Assembly: GCF_000702445.1 (NCBI RefSeq)
Contig: NZ_JNIF01000004.1
Span: forward strand, 62,001-126,000
DNA from: Bryobacter aggregatus MPL3
GTDB lineage: Bacteria > Acidobacteriota > Terriglobia > Bryobacterales > Bryobacteraceae
DNA: 64,000 nucleotides
Direction: 5' to 3'
This document shows, piece by piece, positions 1 through 62,786 of the stretch; the first letter of the stretch is position 1; every line of letters starts with the position of its first letter. The notes under the pieces are model-generated. The model worked only from the letters and a program-made list of their open reading frames with translations, was not told where the DNA came from and ran no database searches. The position numbers and the translations under genes are program-made.

Positions 1-2
1 TA

Positions 3-197
3 GGCAACGGCACGCGGACTTGGCCTTATCTGCCGAAAGCCTACGATTTCAAAGACGGCAAGCTGTGGCCAAACGACCGGCCCGGACTGGGTGTTCAGGT
101 GGACGTGAGCAAGATGTCTAGAATCGGGGAGTACACCACGTATCGCGCCGGGATGTTGCTCAACCAGCGTCCGGACGGATCGTTCACCAACTGGTAG
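3..197 (+). CDS. Enolase-superfamily (mandelate racemase/muconate lactonizing-like) enzyme, C-terminal fragment
   Basis: The reading frame is open from the window edge and stops at TAG 195-197, giving the last 64 residues of a protein whose start lies outside the window. The tail contains WPNDRPGLGVQVDV. In mandelate racemase/muconate lactonizing enzymes, often sugar-acid dehydratases, a 'RPGLG(V/I)xxD' segment of this kind closes the C-terminal domain. The catalytic barrel and its metal ligands are not in the window, so the substrate cannot be inferred. The family is known; membership here is inferred from the short tail only. The gene stops 20 bases before the distal copy of the tRNA-Gln 3' end and so marks the chromosomal flank of the inserted element. 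Confidence 0.6.
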   Translation, partial: GNGTRTWPYLPKAYDFKDGKLWPNDRPGLGVQVDVSKMSRIGEYTTYRAGMLLNQRPDGSFTNW

Positions 198-216: not shown

Positions 217-246
217 GTGGCTCCCCGACATGGATTCGAACCACGA
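217..246. repeat. Distal attachment-site copy (tRNA-Gln 3' end)
   Basis: These 30 bases are identical, in the same orientation, to 4353-4382, which is the CCA end, acceptor strand and T-arm of the tRNA-Gln gene. No cloverleaf can form from this copy because the sequence diverges at 247, so it is not a tRNA gene. It is the expected att core left at the far end of an island integrated at a tRNA 3' end. Confidence 0.85.
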
Positions 247-327
247 ACTTGACAGGATTTTGAAGGCTCAGAAGTTGTTGATTCTACAAAGTCACTGAAG
301 TCGTCAAAAGCAGCAAAAGCAGTGTCT

Positions 328-348
328 CGGTACAAAATCGGTACAAAT
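328..348. repeat. GTACA double repeat near left island end
   Basis: The segment contains GTACAAAATCGGTACAAAT, two direct GTACA units 11 bases apart. A nearly identical segment in the same orientation lies at 4295-4312 near the other end; over the shared 18 bases only one position differs. Paired short repeats just inside att cores are typical of integrase arm-type sites, but this role is inferred. Confidence 0.5.
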
Positions 349-362
349 CTTTGGAGCCTGCG

Positions 363-1328
363 CTAGTACGACATGTACGGTTTCATCACGTCACCGAAAG
401 ATGCTGCCCCGGATTCGAGTTCCTGCATTGACTGGTCAATCTGTGCCGCATCGGGCAACCCGGAGACGGTGATCTTCGCGGAAAAACTCAGCCGCTTCCC
501 GACGGTTCGCAGCATTTCGTTCAGTTGCGACACAAGGGACTCGCGAATCTCGAGCTTGAACCTCTCGAAGCGCAAAAACCGCTGAACGAAATAGAACTCC
601 GTCATTTCGTTCGGAAAAGAGTTGCGAGCATTCCAACCTGCCTCTCGCGTCGCTTGCGCGATGGCGATGTTGTGCCATTTTTTCCATTCCTGAAACTCAA
701 AGCCGATATCGCGGACAGGGTTGCCCGGCACCGGCATCCCGAATTTGGGATACATGTCGCGCCCAAGGTTTTCCAAATCCGCCATCATCGGCACGAAATA
801 CCGTTCGATCGTCGGCGGCAGCCGAAGCTGCAAGACCGCGTCCGCCGGCAGATGAATTTGAGACTGCCCTTTGATTCGCTCCGCATACGCGGGCGGAACG
901 GTCTGGACCCAACCGTCGCGCTGGCGCTTCAGGGTCCAGGGGAGGATGAAGGACAGGCCGAATGTCACGAGCTTTTCCGTCTCGGGATCGCTGAAATAGA
1001 CGATCTCGTAAGTCGCTTCGCGGCAAGCGAGGACAGTTTGCGTAGCCTCGCGCAGGAAATTCCGAACAGAGTCCGAGAGGTCTGGCCGGTATCCCTCACG
1101 GTCAAGTCCTTCACCGATCAAGTATTCAAGTTCGGGGTTTTCGGGTTCAAGCGTAATCGCGAACTTCGAGCTGTCTCCGTAGGGCACCAGGCCGTTTGCG
1201 GCATCTTCGACGAGCATGCGGCTGTAGTGCGTGTCGCCGTACTCCTTCGGTGGCCGCGTTCCCGCGATATCCGAGAACATATGAACCGAATGCTGTAGCC
1301 GCTTTAATTCCCGCTTGTGTCTGTTCAT
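363..1328 (-). CDS. Unrecognised 321-residue protein, second gene of the island operon
   Basis: I do not recognise this protein. It starts at ATG 1326-1328, whose first bases overlap the TGA of the 914-residue membrane protein gene (ATGA), so the two are very probably translationally coupled. There is no signal peptide and no convincing membrane helix; the composition is that of a soluble, mixed alpha/beta protein. The N-terminus is basic (MNRHKRELKRL). The middle has beta-like segments such as YEIVYFSDPETEKLV, and about residues 205-280 are rich in aromatic and charged helices (FQEWKKWHNIAIAQ). No nuclease, ATPase, methyltransferase or recombinase motif is visible. The context, a two-gene cargo of a tRNA island, suggests an accessory function such as defence, but that is speculation. 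Confidence 0.75.
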   Translation of the reverse strand: MNRHKRELKRLQHSVHMFSDIAGTRPPKEYGDTHYSRMLVEDAANGLVPYGDSSKFAITLEPENPELEYLIGEGLDREGYRPDLSDSVRNFLREATQTVLACREATYEIVYFSDPETEKLVTFGLSFILPWTLKRQRDGWVQTVPPAYAERIKGQSQIHLPADAVLQLRLPPTIERYFVPMMADLENLGRDMYPKFGMPVPGNPVRDIGFEFQEWKKWHNIAIAQATREAGWNARNSFPNEMTEFYFVQRFLRFERFKLEIRESLVSQLNEMLRTVGKRLSFSAKITVSGLPDAAQIDQSMQELESGAASFGDVMKPYMSY

Positions 1329-4069
1329 TCATCCGCCTCGCCGCCGGTTTGGCCGCCGCGCTTTTGCTCGCGCTCGTAGGAATCGGCAAAGCTTTCTGTC
1401 CGCCTCGGCAATACCGGGTCTTTCGTGAAGGGCTGCTTGAGGAGATACACGGTCAGAAACACGTCGGACAGATCGGAAAACATGCCGCCGCGAAGCAAGG
1501 ACCGGACAATTGGGCTCTTGTGCTGATTCTGAGGGCGGCCGTTCCAGGGCAGTCCGCCATACCAGTCTTCACGCAAGCCGCGCCGGCGCATATCGTGCTC
1601 AAAATGCTGTTTCCAGCTTGTTCTCTGTATCGCTCCCGGATTGAGCCCGAGACTCTCGGTCCTAAACTTCATGACGGTGAGCAGCCATGTCACAACATCC
1701 TGGGGATCTTTCACATTCGCAAAGTAGGTGTCCCAAGCCGCTTTGACCGTTTTCCAGGTGTCCTTCGGACCCAGCTCGGAATAGATGATTGCGTAGCCTG
1801 AAAGTTCCATCAGGTTTTCAATCGGCTCGGTGCTGAAGATGATGTTGGTACGCACCGGTTGTTCCTTGAGCTCGTCTCTCAGGCGGTCATAGGCCGCAAG
1901 GCTGGCCTGAAAAAGCGACGGAAACATCTTTGCGACCTGCTCGTCGCGGTCGAATGCGATCGCATCGAAACATGCCTTCGTCGATGCGCCCAGCGCGTGC
2001 CCGAAGAAATCCGGCAACGCCGCGCGCTTTTGAAGGCGCGAAAGTGGCACCAAGAGCTTCGCCGTAGCGATTTCAATGCGTTCTTCGAGCTTGGAAAGCC
2101 GGACTGCGACCGCGTCCCAATCGATGCCCGGCCACTCGCCCTCCGTGTGACCGCGCCATTCCATCCATTTCTTGTGCGACGCTTTGAGCTGTCCAAGGTT
2201 GTGCTGGAACTTACTGCAGCCTTCCAATGCCCTGCTGCTGAGCGAGGCGGCGGCAAGCCAGCATTGCTCCGTTATCAAGGCATCGAGGTCGCCCCCAAAA
2301 CTCGCCTCAAAAAGCGCGACCACGGAGTCAAGCGATTCCTTATACCATCTGCAATAGGCAAACGCCGCGCGCTGGCGCAAATACCACGGCGCGGTTATGC
2401 GCGTTCCCTCGACACGGCGCTCGAAATCGATCTCGGAGCGGAGCCGTTCAAGAGCCGTGATAACCGTTCTCGGTGCGTTCAGCTTGTAGATCCCGTCGCC
2501 CGCCAGCCAGTCCGGCCCCGACAACGCCATGCGCAAACGTTCGCTGCTCTCGTCACTGACGCTATTCGCGAAAGAGAGAAGCAGACGGATTGCGCCGAGT
2601 GCATAGCACTCTACTGTCCCCAGGCGTTGGACGAGGTCGTTTTCCTCCTGTCCCAGCGCGTCATCGTGGCCTTTGGTCTTTCTGGCTTCGCTCCTGAAAA
2701 ACGGAGCCCAGGCACCTGCGAATTCCACGGCTTCGCTCACCAGCATGCATCCGGCCAGCCGCCCGATCGCTTCCGCTGCGGAAAGGCTGACCTGCGCCGC
2801 CTGCTCAAGATGATTGCCTTGCAGAAGGGCGTTGTAGGCGAACCAGAATGTTTCGCTCGTTTCTTTCTCAAACCAGATCGCGTCAGGAACCTCTTTGGGC
2901 TGCAACGTCGTTCCCGTGTTCAACGCGACGCTCGTCTCGGTAAAGTCCGTCGTCAGCCAGTTCTTGTGCGCGTACTGCCTGCGAAACCAGTAGCTGTCGC
3001 TGGCAAGAAGATGTTTCCGCCTGCCGTAATAGGCCCAGATGGCGAGGAGATTTTGGGCAAGATAGGGGAGCGTGTACTGGCGTGAAACCGCATCCTGTGC
3101 GGCCACCCGCACCACGCTTTCGTACGAATTCAGGAGCGATCCTGCCTGCTTCTGGTAAAAGGCCTGGAACGATTGCTGGCGGCTGAATACATGCAACGTC
3201 GTCGCGCGATTGATCGAACTGACGAGTTCGGAACCGAGCTGCCTGACGAGCGATGCGGGATCGAAAAACTCGAACGCCCGGCGTCCGAGCAGCACGAAAC
3301 TCAAGATCGTCGCCACGCCGAGGATTGTCACCAGGACCAAATTCAGGAGCCCGGTCTGAATTCCGATGCTCTGCCCGGCGAGCAGCAGCGTTGCGACCGC
3401 CCCGAACAGGGCGACCAGCTTGATGTACTGGTTGCCGAGCTTGTCGGTGAACATCAGTTCGCGAACATTCGGCGGCACATTTGAATAACGTGCGCTGATA
3501 AGCGTTCCGACGGCCGCAAAGTAGAGTCCCAGGAAGACGCCGGCAATCTGGGCCAGGGTGCTAAGCAAAGATGCGGCCGCGCCGGTGTCGAGATGGAAGA
3601 CTTTCAGGCTTTCGTAGACGTGCGCGAGCCACGGCCATTTTGAAATATACGCTGTCGTGGAAAGAAAGAACGTCTTGAAGAGAACTTCGATCCATCCAAC
3701 GCCGAAAACGAGAACGAGAGCCACCGCCAAGGACCAGGCGATCGATCGCAGGATGACGGAAATCATCTGGACCGACTCGCGCGTGGAGCGAGCCTTCGTT
3801 CCTACTGCGTGCCCCGTGCGCAGCAGCCGGAACGAAAGCAGGTGCAGGCCTTTGCGCAGTAGCCAATAGGCTGGAAGATGTTGCCAGATCGCGCGGCTCT
3901 GAACGGGCCGGTTCAGGCGCAACAGGCCCGCGACCGCCCGTTTCCAGTCCGGTGTCTTTGGCTCCTCATCCATCATGGCTGTTCGATTCGATTCTTCAGG
4001 GTTAAGCACTAGATTAGTGGTGCGCGGGCGCGGCAGCAAGTTGTTCCTGATCGATGGCGGCTTCGCCAC
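1325..4069 (-). CDS. Unrecognised 914-residue membrane protein, first gene of the island operon
   Basis: This is a long intact frame with no family I can name. Four hydrophobic segments lie in the N-terminal third, at about residues 108-130, 164-190, 216-234 and 238-260. They are followed by about 650 mostly helical, soluble residues with many Trp, Arg and Glu and no visible catalytic motif. The start is uncertain: the longest form begins at GTG 4069 without a well-placed ribosome site, and two adjacent ATG codons at residues 32-33 (ATG at 3974-3976) are good alternatives that leave all helices intact. The stop overlaps the start of the 321-residue gene by four bases. An inner-membrane protein with a large cytoplasmic domain is inferred. 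Together with its partner it makes up the whole visible cargo of the island. Confidence 0.75.
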   Translation of the reverse strand: MAKPPSIRNNLLPRPRTTNLVLNPEESNRTAMMDEEPKTPDWKRAVAGLLRLNRPVQSRAIWQHLPAYWLLRKGLHLLSFRLLRTGHAVGTKARSTRESVQMISVILRSIAWSLAVALVLVFGVGWIEVLFKTFFLSTTAYISKWPWLAHVYESLKVFHLDTGAAASLLSTLAQIAGVFLGLYFAAVGTLISARYSNVPPNVRELMFTDKLGNQYIKLVALFGAVATLLLAGQSIGIQTGLLNLVLVTILGVATILSFVLLGRRAFEFFDPASLVRQLGSELVSSINRATTLHVFSRQQSFQAFYQKQAGSLLNSYESVVRVAAQDAVSRQYTLPYLAQNLLAIWAYYGRRKHLLASDSYWFRRQYAHKNWLTTDFTETSVALNTGTTLQPKEVPDAIWFEKETSETFWFAYNALLQGNHLEQAAQVSLSAAEAIGRLAGCMLVSEAVEFAGAWAPFFRSEARKTKGHDDALGQEENDLVQRLGTVECYALGAIRLLLSFANSVSDESSERLRMALSGPDWLAGDGIYKLNAPRTVITALERLRSEIDFERRVEGTRITAPWYLRQRAAFAYCRWYKESLDSVVALFEASFGGDLDALITEQCWLAAASLSSRALEGCSKFQHNLGQLKASHKKWMEWRGHTEGEWPGIDWDAVAVRLSKLEERIEIATAKLLVPLSRLQKRAALPDFFGHALGASTKACFDAIAFDRDEQVAKMFPSLFQASLAAYDRLRDELKEQPVRTNIIFSTEPIENLMELSGYAIIYSELGPKDTWKTVKAAWDTYFANVKDPQDVVTWLLTVMKFRTESLGLNPGAIQRTSWKQHFEHDMRRRGLREDWYGGLPWNGRPQNQHKSPIVRSLLRGGMFSDLSDVFLTVYLLKQPFTKDPVLPRRTESFADSYEREQKRGGQTGGEADE

Positions 4070-4294
4070 CCTGTTTTGCGCGTTCAGACGAGTTTGCCGA
4101 GGCCCTCAAAGGGCGTTACCGTTTAGGGCCGAAGCCTTCATTTTCGGGTTCGCAGTGGCTTCCGCATTGTCTGGGAAGCCTTCTTGTGATGACTGCGCTT
4201 TCGGGAGCATAGGTCCTAATTCCAAACTTCGAATCCATGCTCAGCGTTCTTCTCGTGCAGCATCAATGATTTCGGACCCGGGGCCTAGTTACGT

Positions 4295-4312
4295 CGGTAC
4301 AAAATCCGTACA
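4295..4312. repeat. GTACA double repeat near right island end
   Basis: The sequence CGGTACAAAATCCGTACA matches the left-end repeat at 328-348 at all but one of 18 positions and has the same orientation. It lies 40 bases inside the tRNA-proximal att core. A recombinase or excisionase binding site is a plausible reading, not proven. Confidence 0.5.
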
Positions 4313-4352
4313 GTGGGACGGCGACTCTCTTCTAAATTGTTGAGGCTAAAGA

Positions 4353-4382
4353 GTGGCTCCCCGACATGGATTCGAACCACGA
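4353..4382. repeat. Proximal attachment-site copy within tRNA-Gln
   Basis: These 30 bases cover the 3' end of the tRNA-Gln gene plus one base beyond CCA and are repeated exactly at 217-246. Integration restored the tRNA gene, which keeps a complete cloverleaf. Confidence 0.85.
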
Positions 4383-4427
4383 TTCACGGCGTCAAAGGCC
4401 GCTGTCCTACCATTAGACGATCGGGGA
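4354..4427 (-). tRNA. tRNA-Gln (anticodon UUG)
   Basis: Read on the minus strand, the gene begins TCCCCGATCGTCTAATGG and ends GTCGGGGAGCCA. The 7-bp acceptor stem TCCCCGA/TCGGGGA pairs perfectly. The D-arm has GTC...GAC, the anticodon arm is GCGGC-CTTTGAC-GCCGT with anticodon TTG in the 7-base loop, and the T-loop TTCGAATC is canonical. CCA is encoded at 4354-4356. Total length is 74. The 3' end is the integration target of the neighbouring island. The kinase gene stops only 24 bases upstream on the same strand. Confidence 0.95.
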
Positions 4428-4450: not shown

Positions 4451-6736
4451 TCAGTGCCCGGTGAGGCCCTTTAAACGAAGAATCTCCTGCTCTTCTTGTG
4501 GCTTCCAGCCTGCCAATCGTCCGTAGCTGTTCCAGCGTGAGAGCGCTTCTTCAAAAGACTCCCTGGCCGCTTCGCTCTTTCGCTGCTTCAAATACAACTC
4601 ACCCCGCACCGTGAGCGCTTGTGCAAGTTGCTTGTGATATTCCGCCTTGGGCTCCGGTTTCAAGAGCAGCTTGCGGAGCATCTCGATTGCGCGTGCGGTT
4701 TCTTCGAGTGCCGGCCCTTCTCCTTGCATCTGCGCTGTCCGGATGAGGTTGTCGGCCAGTCCCGATAGTACTTCATCGTTCCCAGCTTCTTTCTTTGCCG
4801 CCTGCTCCAGCAGAAGCCGCGCTTCCCGATAGCTTGCCAGGGCCTGACCCGCCTGTTTCGAGCGCGCCAGCGTCTCGCCCAGTCCATTCAATGTCTTTGC
4901 CAGATCGATGAGTGGCGTGACCTCGCTTTCCGGGTCTTGAACGTGCGGACGCAGTACCGCCTCTGCTGTCCGAAACACATTCAGCGCTTCCACCAGATCC
5001 CCCAGCGACAGCGCTTTGTTCCCGACCTGATTGGCGGAACGTGCATAATCTGCCGCTTTGTTGCGATCCTTTTTGTCTGCCGCATAGATCACGCCGAACT
5101 GCTGCATGGCTGAGCGCGCCAGTGGCATCGACGCGGCTTGCTCTCCGGCGGCAAACAACAGGTCGGAAAGGGCGGCATCGGCTGCTGCTTTGGCCTTCAA
5201 GAGATCGGGTTGCGTGGAACTGATGCTGACGAATTTCTCTTTCCAGGCCTGCGCGACACGGATGGCCTCTTGATAGTCGCGTGCATCGTTCAGCAGTTCC
5301 GAGAGCATACGGGCAGACTTCGCGTATTCCAGCAACGCGGCATCGGTCAAATTCTCTGTGGTGATGAGCTTGGCCGTGAGCTCATAGGCCTTGCGTGCCG
5401 ATTGGATGGCTGCACCCCGATTGCCCCCAAGTGCCACACTCCCTTTCCGTTCTACTTCGGCCATGCGGAGATAGGCCTTTGCGAGTTCTCCGACCACCTC
5501 GGGCTTGTCGGCATTCTTGGCCAGCATGTCGTCGAGATAAGCCTTCGCACTTTCCACTGAGGAAGCTTGGACCTTTGATTCGGCGACGACGGGCTTACGG
5601 CTGTTCTGCGTCTGCGAGCGTCCGCGCTGCAGCACCGCGACACTCGCTGTTCCAAGAACGGCAACGAGCAGGGTGGTGGTGATCCAGTACTGCCGCAGGA
5701 TCTTTAACGCAAAGGATGCGGCATTCTCAGTGATTGGCCGGACGGCACGGCATTCGAGATAAGCTTCGATGTCTTTGCCCATGGACATGACATCGGGGTA
5801 ACGCGCCTCACGATTCTTCTCAGTCGCCTTGGCGATGATGTAGTTGAGGTCGGCTCCAATCCCTTCGATCTGCGGCAGAATCCTCTCACAGATGGCCCGG
5901 CCCCGCTCTATCACGTTGTCCGTGGGCGGGCCGTATGGCTGCTCGCCCGAGAGCAGTTCGTAGAGAATGACGCCGAGGGTATAAACGTCTGTTGCTGGAG
6001 TGATCGCAGTGCCGCGAATCTGTTCGGGCGCCAGATAGGCCAGACTTGCGACCTCTAAATTCTGCTGCGTGCCAATCGGATCTCCACCTTTCGCGAAGAC
6101 ACGGGCCAGCCCAAAGTCGATGAGGCGGGGCGTCTGTTCCCGGCCCACCAGGATGTTGGCAGGCTTCAGATCGCCATGTAAAATCTCCCGTTGATGGGCA
6201 TAGCCCACTGCAGAAAGCACCCGCAAAAAGACCGTCAGCTTCTCCCGTGTGCCGAAAGTCTGGAGCGCTTCCGTGATCGGCTTTCCGCTTTCAAACTCGG
6301 AGACTACAAAAGGACGGCCTGCCACAACCCATCCGGAATCGAGGACGCGTGCGATGCCGTTATCGTAAAGCATCGCCAGTTCCCGCATGTCCTGCACAAA
6401 CTGCTGCTGTGCGGTTGCGCCATCGAGCAGGATGCGGCTGGCCTTGAAGCACACCATGCGGTCCAGCGAACCGTCCGCTCGCTCTGCCAGATAATCCGTA
6501 CCCAGGCCGTCGCTGGCAAGGGGAAGGATCAGCCGCCAGATGGAGATCTCCTCGGGCAACTCCTCTGCGTCCGTCGAGGAATGAGACCGTACGAGACGAA
6601 GTACCCGCCGCGCGTATCCGTGGAGTTCCCGGTCGAGACCCAACTCCCGATCGAGAACTTCCTCGTCCTCCCCGCGTGCCTGATCGAGGGCTGCGGCGAA
6701 TCGGGGCTGGATCTGATACCACTGGCTCGTCGTCAT
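4451..6736 (-). CDS. Membrane Ser/Thr protein kinase with C-terminal TPR-like region
   Basis: This 761-residue protein has a Hanks-type kinase domain at about residues 60-330. The ATP-binding Lys is probably K98 (RMVCFKAS). The catalytic loop reads HGDLKPANIL at 187-196, metal-binding DFG is at 207-209, and the activation segment ends APE at 236-238, followed by DVYTLGVILYELLSGEQPYG. The glycine-rich loop is degenerate. The catalytic loop is HGD rather than HRD, so the usual Arg before the catalytic Asp is absent. A single membrane helix lies at about 352-370 (TTLLVAVLGTASVAVL). The remaining 390 residues are helical repeats of TPR type, probably outside the cytoplasm. The kinase domain therefore faces the cytoplasm and the repeats may sense or bind partners. 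Two small membrane proteins lie just upstream on the same strand and may be co-transcribed. The family is certain; the substrates are unknown. Confidence 0.92.
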   Translation of the reverse strand: MTTSQWYQIQPRFAAALDQARGEDEEVLDRELGLDRELHGYARRVLRLVRSHSSTDAEELPEEISIWRLILPLASDGLGTDYLAERADGSLDRMVCFKASRILLDGATAQQQFVQDMRELAMLYDNGIARVLDSGWVVAGRPFVVSEFESGKPITEALQTFGTREKLTVFLRVLSAVGYAHQREILHGDLKPANILVGREQTPRLIDFGLARVFAKGGDPIGTQQNLEVASLAYLAPEQIRGTAITPATDVYTLGVILYELLSGEQPYGPPTDNVIERGRAICERILPQIEGIGADLNYIIAKATEKNREARYPDVMSMGKDIEAYLECRAVRPITENAASFALKILRQYWITTTLLVAVLGTASVAVLQRGRSQTQNSRKPVVAESKVQASSVESAKAYLDDMLAKNADKPEVVGELAKAYLRMAEVERKGSVALGGNRGAAIQSARKAYELTAKLITTENLTDAALLEYAKSARMLSELLNDARDYQEAIRVAQAWKEKFVSISSTQPDLLKAKAAADAALSDLLFAAGEQAASMPLARSAMQQFGVIYAADKKDRNKAADYARSANQVGNKALSLGDLVEALNVFRTAEAVLRPHVQDPESEVTPLIDLAKTLNGLGETLARSKQAGQALASYREARLLLEQAAKKEAGNDEVLSGLADNLIRTAQMQGEGPALEETARAIEMLRKLLLKPEPKAEYHKQLAQALTVRGELYLKQRKSEAARESFEEALSRWNSYGRLAGWKPQEEQEILRLKGLTGH

Positions 6737-12829: not shown

Positions 12830-14292
12830 ATTCGACGATTCTGTTCCAAGGCTATGCAGGGTTCGGCGCGGACGCGCTGGTGTTTCCCGCAATCGAGGGG
12901 AGCGCCCCTCAGACCGGCAACGCGGCGGTCGATGAATGGGCGAGCGACCTCTACGCTTCTGGTGAGTTTTCCGGCAAATCTCTCGAGACGGCCCTGCTCT
13001 ACAAACCGGCGGGCCTGGAGGCGAAACGCGTCCTTCTGATCGGCCTGGGCAAGGGCGATACGGTCAACAGCGCGGTCCTCCGGCGCGTGGCCGGCGCCGC
13101 ACTCCGGACCTTGAAAGCAAAGTCGATTCTGAAAATTGGCTTCGTTCTGGCGAAAGAATTCCAACAGGCCGCCTACGCGCAGGCCCTGCTCGAAGGCGCG
13201 GTCGCCGCGGACTTTGAACCGGACGAACACAAAAGCAAAAAGGATGCGAAGCACGCCGAGAGCTTCACGATTCTCGCCGAAGGTGGCTCCTCGGACTTGG
13301 CCGAAGCAGCCCGCAATGGCGCGGTGATCGGCGAGGCGCAGAACTTCACCCGGGCGCTCGTGAACGAGCCCGGCAACCTGCTGACGCCGACCGTTCTGGC
13401 CGCTCGCGCCAAAGCGATGGCGGAAGAGAACGGTCTCGATGTCGACATCCTCGACGAGGATCGCATGCGGCAGCTTGGCATGGGCAGTCTGCTCGCGGTG
13501 GCGCAGGGAAGCGCAGAGCCCCCAGCCATGATCGTGCTGCACTACAAGCCGGCTGACGCCAAGCCGGGCACGCATCTGGGATTGATCGGTAAAGGGGTCA
13601 CCTTTGACACCGGTGGCATCTCGATCAAACCGAGCGAGAGCATGGAAAAGATGAAGTACGACATGGCCGGTGGGGCGGCGGTGATCGGCGCAATGATGGC
13701 CATCGCCAAACTGCAGCCGAAGGTGGAAGTCACTGCCGTGATCCCCACTGTCGAAAACATGCCGGGTTCCCGGGCTGTCCGTCCTGGCGACATTGTCACT
13801 TCACTGGCTGGTAAGACCATCGAAGTATTAAACACCGATGCTGAGGGGCGGCTGATTCTGATCGACGCGATCACCTACGCCAAGCGTCTGGGCGTCACGC
13901 TGATGATCGACGCGGCCACGCTCACCGGCGCGATCACCGTTGCTCTCGGCGCCGTCAACGTCGGCCTCTTCTCGAACGATGGAGGCTGGCAGCAGCAGGT
14001 GCTCGATTCGTCCAAGGAAGTTGGCGAGAAGATGTGGCCCATGCCGATGGATGACGAATATAAGGAGCTGTTGAAGAACGCCTTTGCCGACATGCCGAAT
14101 ATCGGTAGCCGGGGCGCGGGATCGATCACCGCGGCGCTCTTCCTCAAAGAATGGGTCGAAGATACGCCCTGGGTGCATCTCGACATTGCCGGTACGGCGT
14201 GGATTGACGAAGCAAAGCCATTTCTTGCGAAAGGCCCGACAGGCGTTGGCATGCGGACCTTCATCGAAGTGGCGCGCCGTCTGGCGAACTAG
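12826..14292 (+). CDS. pepA: Leucyl aminopeptidase (M17 family)
   Basis: This cytoplasmic two-metal aminopeptidase releases N-terminal residues from peptides. From ATG 12826 the protein has 488 residues. The metal and active-site motifs are clear: GKGVTFDTGGISIKPS and MKYDMAGGAAV around residues 253-290, and the family signature NTDAEGRL near 335. I prefer ATG 12826 because it overlaps the smpB stop as ATGA; a longer frame from 12715 would lie inside smpB. The TAG stop lies in a CTAG that also encodes, on the other strand, the stop of the convergent dehydrogenase gene. Confidence 0.96.
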   Translation: MNSTILFQGYAGFGADALVFPAIEGSAPQTGNAAVDEWASDLYASGEFSGKSLETALLYKPAGLEAKRVLLIGLGKGDTVNSAVLRRVAGAALRTLKAKSILKIGFVLAKEFQQAAYAQALLEGAVAADFEPDEHKSKKDAKHAESFTILAEGGSSDLAEAARNGAVIGEAQNFTRALVNEPGNLLTPTVLAARAKAMAEENGLDVDILDEDRMRQLGMGSLLAVAQGSAEPPAMIVLHYKPADAKPGTHLGLIGKGVTFDTGGISIKPSESMEKMKYDMAGGAAVIGAMMAIAKLQPKVEVTAVIPTVENMPGSRAVRPGDIVTSLAGKTIEVLNTDAEGRLILIDAITYAKRLGVTLMIDAATLTGAITVALGAVNVGLFSNDGGWQQQVLDSSKEVGEKMWPMPMDDEYKELLKNAFADMPNIGSRGAGSITAALFLKEWVEDTPWVHLDIAGTAWIDEAKPFLAKGPTGVGMRTFIEVARRLAN

Positions 14293-61541: not shown

Positions 61542-62786
61542 CTAGACCGGAGCCTCGATGGCGGCTTCGATCGGTTCGAGATCGCCGGTGGGCAGTTCGA
61601 CACCTTCCCATTTGGCGACTGCTGCCGTCGCCAGGCAGTTGCCGAGCAGGTTCACGCTGGTGCGGGCCATATCCATGATCGTGTCTACGCCCATCACGAG
61701 CGCAACGCCCTCGAGCGGTAAGTCGAAGGTCGCAAGCGTACCGCTGAGCACCACCATCGAGGCCCGTGGCACGGCGGCTACGCCCTTGGAAGTGAGCATC
61801 AGGGTGAGCATCATCATGAGCTGTGTGCCAAAGCTCATCTCGACGCCGGCTGCCTGCGCGATGAAGACGCTAGCGAGGCTGAGGTAGAGCGTGGAGCCGT
61901 CGAGATTGAAGCTATAGCCGGTGGGCAGAACGAAACTGACGATATGTTTCGGAACACCGAACCGCTCCATATTCTCCATGGCCTGCGGCAGGGCGGCTTC
62001 GCTTGAAGCGGTTGAGAAGGCCAGAATATAGGGATCTTTGACGGCCTGGATAAAGCGCCGCATCGGGATCTTGAAGATCACCATCACCGCTCCCAGCACC
62101 ACGACAACGAAGATCAGCAAGGACGCGAAGAGGGTGGCGATCAACTGTCCCAGGTTGAAGAGAACTCCAATGCCCTTGCTGCCGATGGTCACAGCCATGG
62201 CCGCACCGACGCCAAAGGGGGCAAAGTACATGATGAACTTCGTGTACTCGAACATGATGTCGCTGAGACTCTTGCACCAATCGACAACGCTCTTGGCCTT
62301 GGTGCCGATGGTGGTGCAGGCCGTGCCGAAGATGAAGGCAAAGATGACGATCTGCAGCACTTCGCCTTTGGACATCGCCTCAATGATGGAACTGGGGAAA
62401 GTGTGCTCGAGCATTCCCGAAAGCGTAACCTTGTTGGCGGCAAGTTGCGCCGTCTCGTGCGGGAGATTGACGCCGATGCCGGGCTTCACCAGATTCACTG
62501 CGGCCAGCCCGAGGAACAGCGCGATGGTTGTTACCACCTCAAAATAGAGAATCGACTTCAGACCAATGCGGCCCATGGTCTTGGCGCTGCCTGTGCCAGC
62601 GATGCCGTAGACCAGGGTGGCAAAGACAAGCGGAGCGATGATGCTCTTAATCAGCCGGAGGAAGACGCTCGATACAGGCGCCAGTTCCTTTGCAAAGTCC
62701 GGTACTGCGATGCCGAGTACGATGCCGGTTGCCATCGCAATGAAGATCCAGGATGTAAGTGATATCTTTTTCAACGTTCGCCCCAT
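61542..62786 (-). CDS. Dicarboxylate/glutamate:cation symporter (DAACS family)
   Basis: From ATG 62784-62786 the 414-residue inner-membrane protein has about eight helices and the family motifs: LIKSIIAPLVFATLVYGIAG, the serine-rich STASSEAALPQAMENM, the hairpin LPTGYSFNLDGSTLYLSLAS and MDMARTSVNLLGNCLA. It imports C4-dicarboxylates or glutamate/aspartate with H+ or Na+. The start overlaps the nadK end by 16 bases. Confidence 0.94.
   Translation of the reverse strand: MGRTLKKISLTSWIFIAMATGIVLGIAVPDFAKELAPVSSVFLRLIKSIIAPLVFATLVYGIAGTGSAKTMGRIGLKSILYFEVVTTIALFLGLAAVNLVKPGIGVNLPHETAQLAANKVTLSGMLEHTFPSSIIEAMSKGEVLQIVIFAFIFGTACTTIGTKAKSVVDWCKSLSDIMFEYTKFIMYFAPFGVGAAMAVTIGSKGIGVLFNLGQLIATLFASLLIFVVVVLGAVMVIFKIPMRRFIQAVKDPYILAFSTASSEAALPQAMENMERFGVPKHIVSFVLPTGYSFNLDGSTLYLSLASVFIAQAAGVEMSFGTQLMMMLTLMLTSKGVAAVPRASMVVLSGTLATFDLPLEGVALVMGVDTIMDMARTSVNLLGNCLATAAVAKWEGVELPTGDLEPIEAAIEAPV

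Follow-up and report, generated by a model that had tools for sequence, protein, structure and literature searches.

The question raised by this locus is how a small insert that encodes no recombinase of its own could have come to lie behind a tRNA gene, and what the genes that it carries might do there. The insert, of 4.1 kb, adjoins tRNA-Gln near the start of a 64,000-nucleotide stretch of the genome of Bryobacter aggregatus MPL3 (positions 62,001 to 126,000 of contig NZ_JNIF01000004.1, assembly GCF_000702445.1), which is called the window and to which the coordinates below refer. With a probability of roughly two in three it can be considered a non-autonomous integrative element that is moved by a tyrosine integrase encoded elsewhere, and whose cargo is a probable antiphage or anti-element operon. 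This reading is carried by features visible at the level of the DNA, namely the termini, the tandem arrays of related elements, a helper candidate that has the same end, and the conserved order of the two cargo genes A and B. Other genomes and loci are designated by G and L numbers, the genome of the window being G000.

The insert and its ends

The insert is bounded by two identical copies of a 30-bp core repeat, GTGGCTCCCCGACATGGATTCGAACCACGA, at 217-246 and 4353-4382 (spacing 4136), and an exact pair of 30-mers within 4 kb excludes a chance origin. Its features, followed by those of the flanks, are:

217..246, no strand: distal 30-bp core repeat (exact direct repeat)
217..350, plus strand: conserved distal terminus common to the element family (alignment; model match with an expectation value E of 1.1e-32, its own sequence being in the training set)
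329..345, plus strand: distal arm-type repeat GGTACAAAATCGGTACA, 82 bp from the core (repeat search, pattern scan)
363..1328, minus strand: gene B, 321 amino acids (aa), predicted phage-portal fold, 4-bp overlap with gene A (list of open reading frames, structure model)
1325..3976, minus strand: gene A, 883 aa, four predicted membrane segments followed by a helical-repeat body (list of open reading frames, hydropathy, fold comparison)
4229..4239, minus strand: inverted core copy (CATGGATTCGA on this strand), part of the proximal module (pattern scan)
4296..4312, plus strand: proximal arm-type repeat GGTACAAAATCCGTACA, 44 bp from the CTCCCC of the core (repeat search, pattern scan)
4353..4382, no strand: proximal 30-bp core repeat, the 3′ end of the tRNA gene (exact direct repeat)
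4354..4427, minus strand: tRNA-Gln(ttg), the integration target, intact (ARAGORN)
1..197, plus strand: left flank, 3′ part of a gene resembling the enolase superfamily, whose full product has 429 aa (open reading frame; presumed family name)
4451..6736, minus strand: right flank, protein kinase with tetratricopeptide repeats (Pfam; gene neighbourhood)

An earlier note, made from the letters of this DNA, had described an intact tRNA-Gln whose 3′ end is duplicated exactly over 30 bp, two coupled genes and nothing else in between, and no recombinase. All of this holds: ARAGORN places the complete tRNA gene at 4354-4427 on the minus strand, the only genes of the insert are the two minus-strand reading frames with their 4-bp overlap, and no phmmer match at E≤1e-3 was obtained within the 4.1 kb with 71 recombinase queries (67 tyrosine and 4 serine). 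Nor was there a Pfam match to a relaxase within the insert. The note had seen the core pair and overlooked a second pair of repeats of arm type, GGTACAAAATCSGTACA, one copy of which lies inside each end of the insert in identical orientation. At up to two mismatches the arm pattern has two matches in the 5.75-Mb genome (4 contigs, 98% complete), both of them at the insert, and a reversed control pattern has one. A long core in the end of a tRNA gene together with paired arm sites is the typical pattern of tyrosine integrases, and we read the repeats, which lie 82 bp from the core at the distal end and 44 bp from it at the proximal end, as integrase arm-type sites.

Neither gene A nor gene B has a Pfam, NCBIfam or PADLOC match. 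Gene A may start at the ATG at 3976, which gives 883 aa, or at a GTG at 4069, which gives 914 aa. The insert is not marked by its composition, since its G+C content is 57% and that of the remaining window 58.5%. On the left, the stop codon of the 429-aa gene, which we take to be enolase/mandelate-racemase-like, lies 19 bp before the distal core. Elsewhere in this genome an identical 395-aa integrase adjoins tRNA-Arg(tcg) near the ends of two contigs (L017 and L018, at G000:C3:8064 and C4:4569), perhaps an assembly break at a repeat.

Comparison with relatives bears out the suspicion of mobility. Gene A is missing from 60 of 60 relatives and is found in 3 of 396 genomes of the phylum, its own included; in six of seven genomes of the same genus the kinase gene also stands beside tRNA-Gln with other DNA behind the tRNA, the seventh locus ending at a contig edge. 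The uninterrupted arrangement of tRNA-Gln followed directly by the enolase-like gene, which the earlier note had thought worth looking for, did not turn up: the gene was absent from the flanks (up to 1.5 kb, several ending at contig edges) at all 26 other tRNA-Gln loci.

Common termini and a helper candidate

Inserts with the same ends and different cargo occupy the same tRNA-Gln in other genera. The family was found by a tRNA-Gln search in 61 genomes together with an arm search in 121 genomes, arm matches without a nearby core (G460, G028, G465, G500) being left out of the element count. The core and the arm are 44-45 bp apart at proximal ends, and 82 bp apart in 11 of the 13 distal ends measured, the other two, both in L133, having 84 and 85 bp. 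When 16 distal ends are aligned, some 135 bases prove to be conserved, and conservation ends directly after the arm; 12 proximal ends were likewise aligned. The distal-end pattern TTCGAA-N75-100-GTACANNATNNGTACA has 14 matches in 12 of the 237 genomes of the bacterial family of the window (11 of 76 genera), and a control version of it has none in the same 237 genomes. A sequence-only model of the distal terminus, named R1, which covers the core and the GTACAAAATCGGTACA arm and was built from 15 ends, detects 38 ends at E≤1e-8. They lie in 28 of the order's 257 genomes, and these genomes all belong to the family of the window; 15 of the ends are the training sequences. The count leaves out many rows in which some 29 bases of the tRNA end alone are matched, as well as weaker rows. 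In a class-wide draw 11 of 399 genomes match the model at the same threshold, again all in that family. A partial distal terminus is present in G002, of the same genus (model E 3.8e-11). IMG/VR holds no exact match to the full attachment-site (attP) pattern or to the conserved distal-terminus fragment. A second conserved block, approximately TTGACAGC...GTATCCC..ACAT, was noticed by eye after tRNA-Gln in several genera (L044, L045, L048, L062, L067) and may be the terminus of another element family.

Sixteen elements are complete, with both ends on one contig, and measure 1,058 to 10,608 bp. An intact tyrosine integrase is present in one of them (L236, of G666) and a remnant in another (L106), and the remaining 14 have none, which here means none at phmmer E≤1e-3 with the 71 queries, so that distant types may escape; a 636-aa gene of L030, weakly matched by Pfam too, was overlooked by the recombinase profile. 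Small serine recombinases lie inside L132 and L236. The cargo is varied: L102 has genes for a major facilitator superfamily transporter, a chromate transporter and a multicopper oxidase, L103 an AbiEi/AbiEii pair, and L106 a deaminase with an NYN-like part. The expectation of the earlier note that such places often carry defence or anti-competitor genes is plausible for the window's element and not general, as the family elsewhere carries transporter, oxidase, AbiE, Fic or deaminase genes. Similar cargo is found in different genera, with 86% DNA identity over 1,249 bp between G454 and G634 and 85% over 1,200 bp between G561 and G519. Tandem junctions are present in G561 (L133, with cores at 5687 and 10692 and tRNA-Gln at 13611; also L251), in G635 (L136, with cores at 5689, 16271 and 17303) and in G454 (L252).

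Three of the loci show variants of this plan. L244 (576-1990) and L104 (7402-8970) have similar 360-aa cargo and degenerate proximal cores. The L244 element ends beside tRNA-Val(gac), and this tRNA as a second clean target was not established, the adjoining core being degenerate. L236 (525-8448) is a 7.9-kb version with an integrase and a resolvase, in which arm-like repeats are similar in layout and of other sequence (TTCGTACTGAGTTCGTACTG); its arm specificity may have diverged.

The proximal ends hold a further module. An inverted copy of the core (CATGGATTCGA, at up to two mismatches) lies 122-144 bp inside 12 of 14 proximal ends that have no integrase gene and is absent from all three ends of the integrase type (L236, L106, L255); shuffles of the same proximal ends have an inverted core at 110-160 bp in 0.7% of cases. 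In some ends (L133, L252) it lies within a hairpin. Because this module is common to most integrase-less ends and absent from the integrase-type ends, the comparison argues for mini-elements that form a lineage of their own and swap cargo, beyond a set of separate deletions.

A candidate for the missing integrase is found in G635, where a gene for a 401-aa tyrosine integrase (L255:2258-3463) lies directly after tRNA-Gln. The first core downstream of it is 47.5 kb away, with none between at up to six mismatches, and the resulting 47-kb island has a distal terminus of the family type (E 3.3e-32; it is among the training sequences) and contains a MobA/VirD2-type relaxase (PF03432). The L236 integrase is 48% identical to that of G635 and likewise sits at the tRNA-Gln-proximal end. 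That the G635 island could serve as helper for the integrase-less elements is plausible. At E≤1e-30 an integrase of the G635 type is encoded in 22 of the 237 genomes of the family, and it adjoins a tRNA-Gln-type core in nine (G635, G483, G634, G632, G459, G666, G595, G586, G520), as read from coordinates for part of the 22; in G473 an integrase remnant adjoins such a core. At E≤1e-60 the integrase is present in 16 genomes. The candidate was located only through the positions of the tRNA core and of PF00589 in G635. A first search, in which 65 tyrosine-recombinase reading frames from 62 loci of 14 genomes (part of the matches of each genome) were clustered, gave one large cluster that spanned all 14 genomes, which we take to be Xer-like, and no other cluster stood out.

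In the mechanism that we propose, the ends of the insert would be attachment sites of a tRNA-Gln-specific tyrosine integrase that recognises the 30-bp core and binds the arms 44 and 82 bp inside it. This integrase would be encoded outside the insert, the best candidate being the 401-aa type of islands such as the 47-kb one of G635. When present, such an island could excise and insert the mini-element in trans, or could carry it along in tandem. The earlier note had proposed a satellite mobilised in trans. The outside recombinase is supported by the integrase-bearing island with the same terminus; a satellite in the phage sense is not, since the best helper candidate has a relaxase, which links it to conjugation, and the termini have no match in the viral collection IMG/VR. 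The word should be read as a hitcher of a conjugation-linked island, and its mobility in trans as a suspicion that comparison of sequences supports well, short of proof.

Recombinases of other kinds were also seen at this tRNA. Those adjoining tRNA-Gln in L142 (525-1586) and L149 (1875-3452), both in genomes of the same genus, and those lying 1.7 kb from it in L140 (12078-13643) and 14 kb from it in L143 (3-1358) are presumably of the serine type, judging by their motifs. Because serine recombinases too sit near it, tRNA-Gln seems to serve unrelated integration systems as a hotspot. Three consecutive tyrosine recombinases near tRNA-Gln in L138 (11757-15068, G018) resemble, we believe, the Tn554 type.

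The cargo pair

Genes A and B occur together outside the window. In all 14 complete loci, which come from three phyla, A is followed by B on the same strand, with a 4-bp overlap in 10 and junctions of 0, 1, 23 and 53 bp in the others, depending on the starts chosen. Besides the window, these loci are on two plasmids (of Burkholderia glumae and Paenibacillus lautus, one of them typed as conjugative), in two further Acidobacteriota (L029, L030) and on nine genome contigs, eight from Pseudomonadota and one from a Peptococcaceae metagenome-assembled genome; a second Paenibacillus plasmid, outside the 14, matches both genes. The gene A of the window as a single query detected no close relatives in IMG/VR or in species genomes, and an alignment of four gene A rows led to 11 loci; L041, which ends at a contig edge, and L040, which is on the same contig as L029, were dropped from the count. 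Gene A has no match in phage records or in IMG/VR, and gene B has none in IMG/VR, phage records not having been searched with B.

Two of these loci lie behind other tRNA genes. In L039 (Mangrovimicrobium sediminis) the pair stands alone in a 4.19-kb element that is bounded by tRNA-Ala and by a 53-bp repeat of the 3′ end of this tRNA gene, at 94% identity, with no recombinase match in the element, which is the same anatomy as that of the window's insert. In L038 (Pseudomonas fluorescens) the pair and a PIN_12 gene are enclosed by tRNA-Leu and a 16-bp repeat of the tRNA's 3′ end. The L032 and L037 loci include a tRNA gene and no duplicated 3′ end.

The neighbourhoods of the pair are suggestive of defence islands. 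A type III restriction-modification pair lies directly upstream of A-B in L033, a DpdE-like helicase and a DUF2971 gene are near the pair in L029, a DUF2971 gene is also found in L032, and the neighbours in L036 are Fic-Hsp70 and DNA methylase genes. In L029 (112-8041) the helicase, a protease gene that we take to be CHAT-like, the portal pair and the DUF2971 gene share one stretch. The B protein of Paenibacillus has one weak PADLOC match (PDC-S06, E 0.0025).

The structure of B was modelled from 11 sequences (pLDDT, the predicted local distance difference test, 77; pTM, the predicted template modelling score, 0.78). With VIA-align, the best 50 entries of the PDB are all particle structures of phages or gene transfer agents, most of them titled portal, neck or connector, at Z 9.4-11.4 over about residues 19-317 of the model. 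Foldseek matches a portal in the PDB with probability 1.00 and E 2.3e-5. Its best 50 PDB rows belong to phage portals, necks or connectors, and in a comparison with viral predicted structures portals account for many of the top rows that carry a name. B is thus predicted to have the core fold of a phage portal. The clip of a phage portal would, we assume, lie between the helices 172-190 and 212-228 of B, where the model has about 21 residues, so that this region looks short; in functional portals, which are dodecameric rings, the clip binds the terminase and the adaptor. B also has a conserved region, GWN-R-TEF.

Hydropathy predicts four membrane segments in A (82-100, 133-151, 188-206 and 213-231), followed by an all-helical, solenoid-like body from about residue 240 to 770. 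The VIA-align rows for this protein are designed repeats, importins, and PCI and HEAT proteins, and the body is best described as predicted helical repeats to which no family can be assigned at those Z values. PHROGs gave nothing firm for A or B, and a sequence search of solved structures gave no row for B and chance-level rows for A.

The role of the pair is most likely antiphage or anti-element. A would be anchored in the membrane by its four helices and offer a helical-repeat scaffold. B would imitate the portal of a phage and encounter components of phage assembly or packaging, and A would hold B, or respond to it, at the membrane.

Competing readings and known systems

Several observations weigh against the reading of the insert as an element moved in trans with a defensive cargo. 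At E≤1e-30 an integrase of the G635 type is lacking in the genome of the window, so the window's copy may be stranded, and at E≤1e-60 only 6 of the 28 terminus-bearing genomes (G473, G520, G597, G634, G635, G666) have one. Of the 16 complete elements only 9 show both arms at up to four mismatches, the inverted core is absent from two integrase-less ends (L243, L240), no empty site with both flanks was found, and no excision or transfer was observed. In L106 (88-447) about 95 codons of the N-terminus of a helper-type integrase survive, with stops within the part that aligns, and the deaminase gene next to them is unrelated; at least this mini-element is a plain deletion product. As for the cargo, the portal match of B has template modelling scores of only 0.25-0.45 by query length, a high root-mean-square deviation and an identity of 6-14%; the 11 members of the B family have no Pfam portal match and a single PHROG portal match at E 0.52. 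No PADLOC-DB 2.0 model matches the window's pair, and the defence role rests on neighbours that were chosen by eye, with no statistic.

Part of this would be explained if the elements were dead remnants, that is, islands of the integrative and conjugative (ICE) or integrative and mobilizable (IME) type, each of which had lost its integrase by deletion and no longer moves, as decayed cis-mobilizable elements. The integrase fragment of L106, degenerate cores in L104 and L240, the missing integrase in the window's genome and the incomplete arms all agree with this. Separate deletions, however, would not create the inverted-core module that is present in 12 of 14 integrase-less ends and in none of three integrase-type ends, and similar cargo in different genera may also speak against it; we consider this explanation unlikely. 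That a serine integrase moves the elements instead is very unlikely: serine recombinases do lie close to tRNA-Gln in L142 and L149, 1.7 kb off in L140 and inside L132 and L236, but a long core from a tRNA end with paired arms is, as noted above, the tyrosine-integrase pattern, and L255 and L236, whose distal terminus is of the family type or related to it, have a tyrosine recombinase at the tRNA-proximal end.

With regard to the cargo, the predicted portal fold of B and the four predicted membrane segments of A could also belong to a conduit for DNA, in which a ring like that of a portal would sit on a membrane scaffold and let DNA pass in uptake, export or conjugation and not in defence; two of the pairs are plasmid-borne, and one of these plasmids is typed as conjugative. 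The conserved unit has no motor ATPase, however, and consists of two genes alone in the window and in L039, which makes a conduit improbable. Hardly any credence can be given to the idea that B is a portal gene left behind by a prophage and does nothing for the cell; its predicted fold would fit, but B stands behind the same large gene, A, in every one of the 14 complete loci, IMG/VR has no relative of A or B, and phage records have none of A. We retain the non-autonomous element moved by an outside tyrosine integrase, with a probable antiphage or anti-element operon as cargo. A bolder combination is possible, if doubtful: a tRNA-Gln lineage with its own termini and inverted core that trades cargo and is moved in trans by a relaxase-bearing island, as a tRNA-based counterpart of integron cassettes, and at the same time an undescribed immune system in which a phage portal domesticated by the cell, together with a helical scaffold anchored in the membrane, would meet phage packaging there.

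The nearest known concept is that of the cis-mobilizable element (CIME), which, in the available part of its description, keeps attachment (att) sites, has no integration or transfer genes and undergoes tandem accretion with an integrase-bearing island (PMC5704250). The window's insert is alike in that it keeps flanking putative attL and attR sites (the exact 30-bp repeats and the arm sites) and has no integration or conjugation genes by Pfam and the recombinase screen; accretion is seen for the element family in G635, the window's copy being alone. It differs in that CIMEs are described there as decay products, whereas the present elements form a 1-10-kb family with varied cargo over many genera and mostly share a proximal module not seen in integrase-type ends. 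From IMEs the insert differs by the absence of an integrase or relaxase match.

The closest parallel in anatomy is provided by the tandem islands at one RNA gene, ssrA, of Dehalococcoides, 15 of which have no integration module and were proposed to be cis-mobilizable; these islands differ in their target, in their serine recombinases and in being confined to one genus, and the part of the report available mentions no arm-type termini (PMC3146451). Closest in logic are the clusters of attC sites lacking integron integrases (CALINs) and "hitcher" elements, which are described, in the portion at hand, as cassette-like DNA moved by an integrase encoded elsewhere (PMC11389934). The sites there are of the attC type, whereas the putative recombination sites here are a tRNA core with arm-type repeats, an inverted copy of the core lying in the proximal module, and the cargo here consists of whole operons. 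The I23/I44/I55 islands at the Pseudomonas tmRNA gene share an RNA-gene target, direct repeats, defence cargo and the lack of transfer genes, and differ in encoding their own tyrosine integrase, as far as the accessible text tells (PMC12595487). A satellite like the phage-inducible chromosomal islands would agree with the portal-like B; in IMG/VR neither the termini nor the genes A and B have a match, and phage records have none to A. From phage portal proteins, to which its predicted fold over about residues 19-317 is alike, B differs in its length of 321 aa, its short presumed clip and its coupling to a membrane protein, and in that no viral copy was found in IMG/VR. Integrases and islands are mentioned for a large acidobacterial genome, with no such element family in the part of the report consulted (PMC3174227). 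Among the matches listed in the open-licence literature there was no description of tRNA-Gln islands in Acidobacteria or of integrase-less mini-islands, nor of a portal-like defence protein or a portal-like cellular two-gene system; Avs4 is described, in the available passages, as recognising the phage portal (PMC12724215).

The elements offer a concrete answer to how 1-10-kb gene islands that have no recombinase may spread, through integrase sites that they share and a helper candidate. Because shared sites and candidate are found in the same bacterial family, a single integrase and a small set of att plasmids would allow a direct test of movement in trans. Of the two parts of the finding, the cargo is the greater surprise. 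It points to an unnoticed bacterial use of the phage portal fold, and if the pair is immune in function, portals would be added to the components of phages that are copied or sensed by cells.

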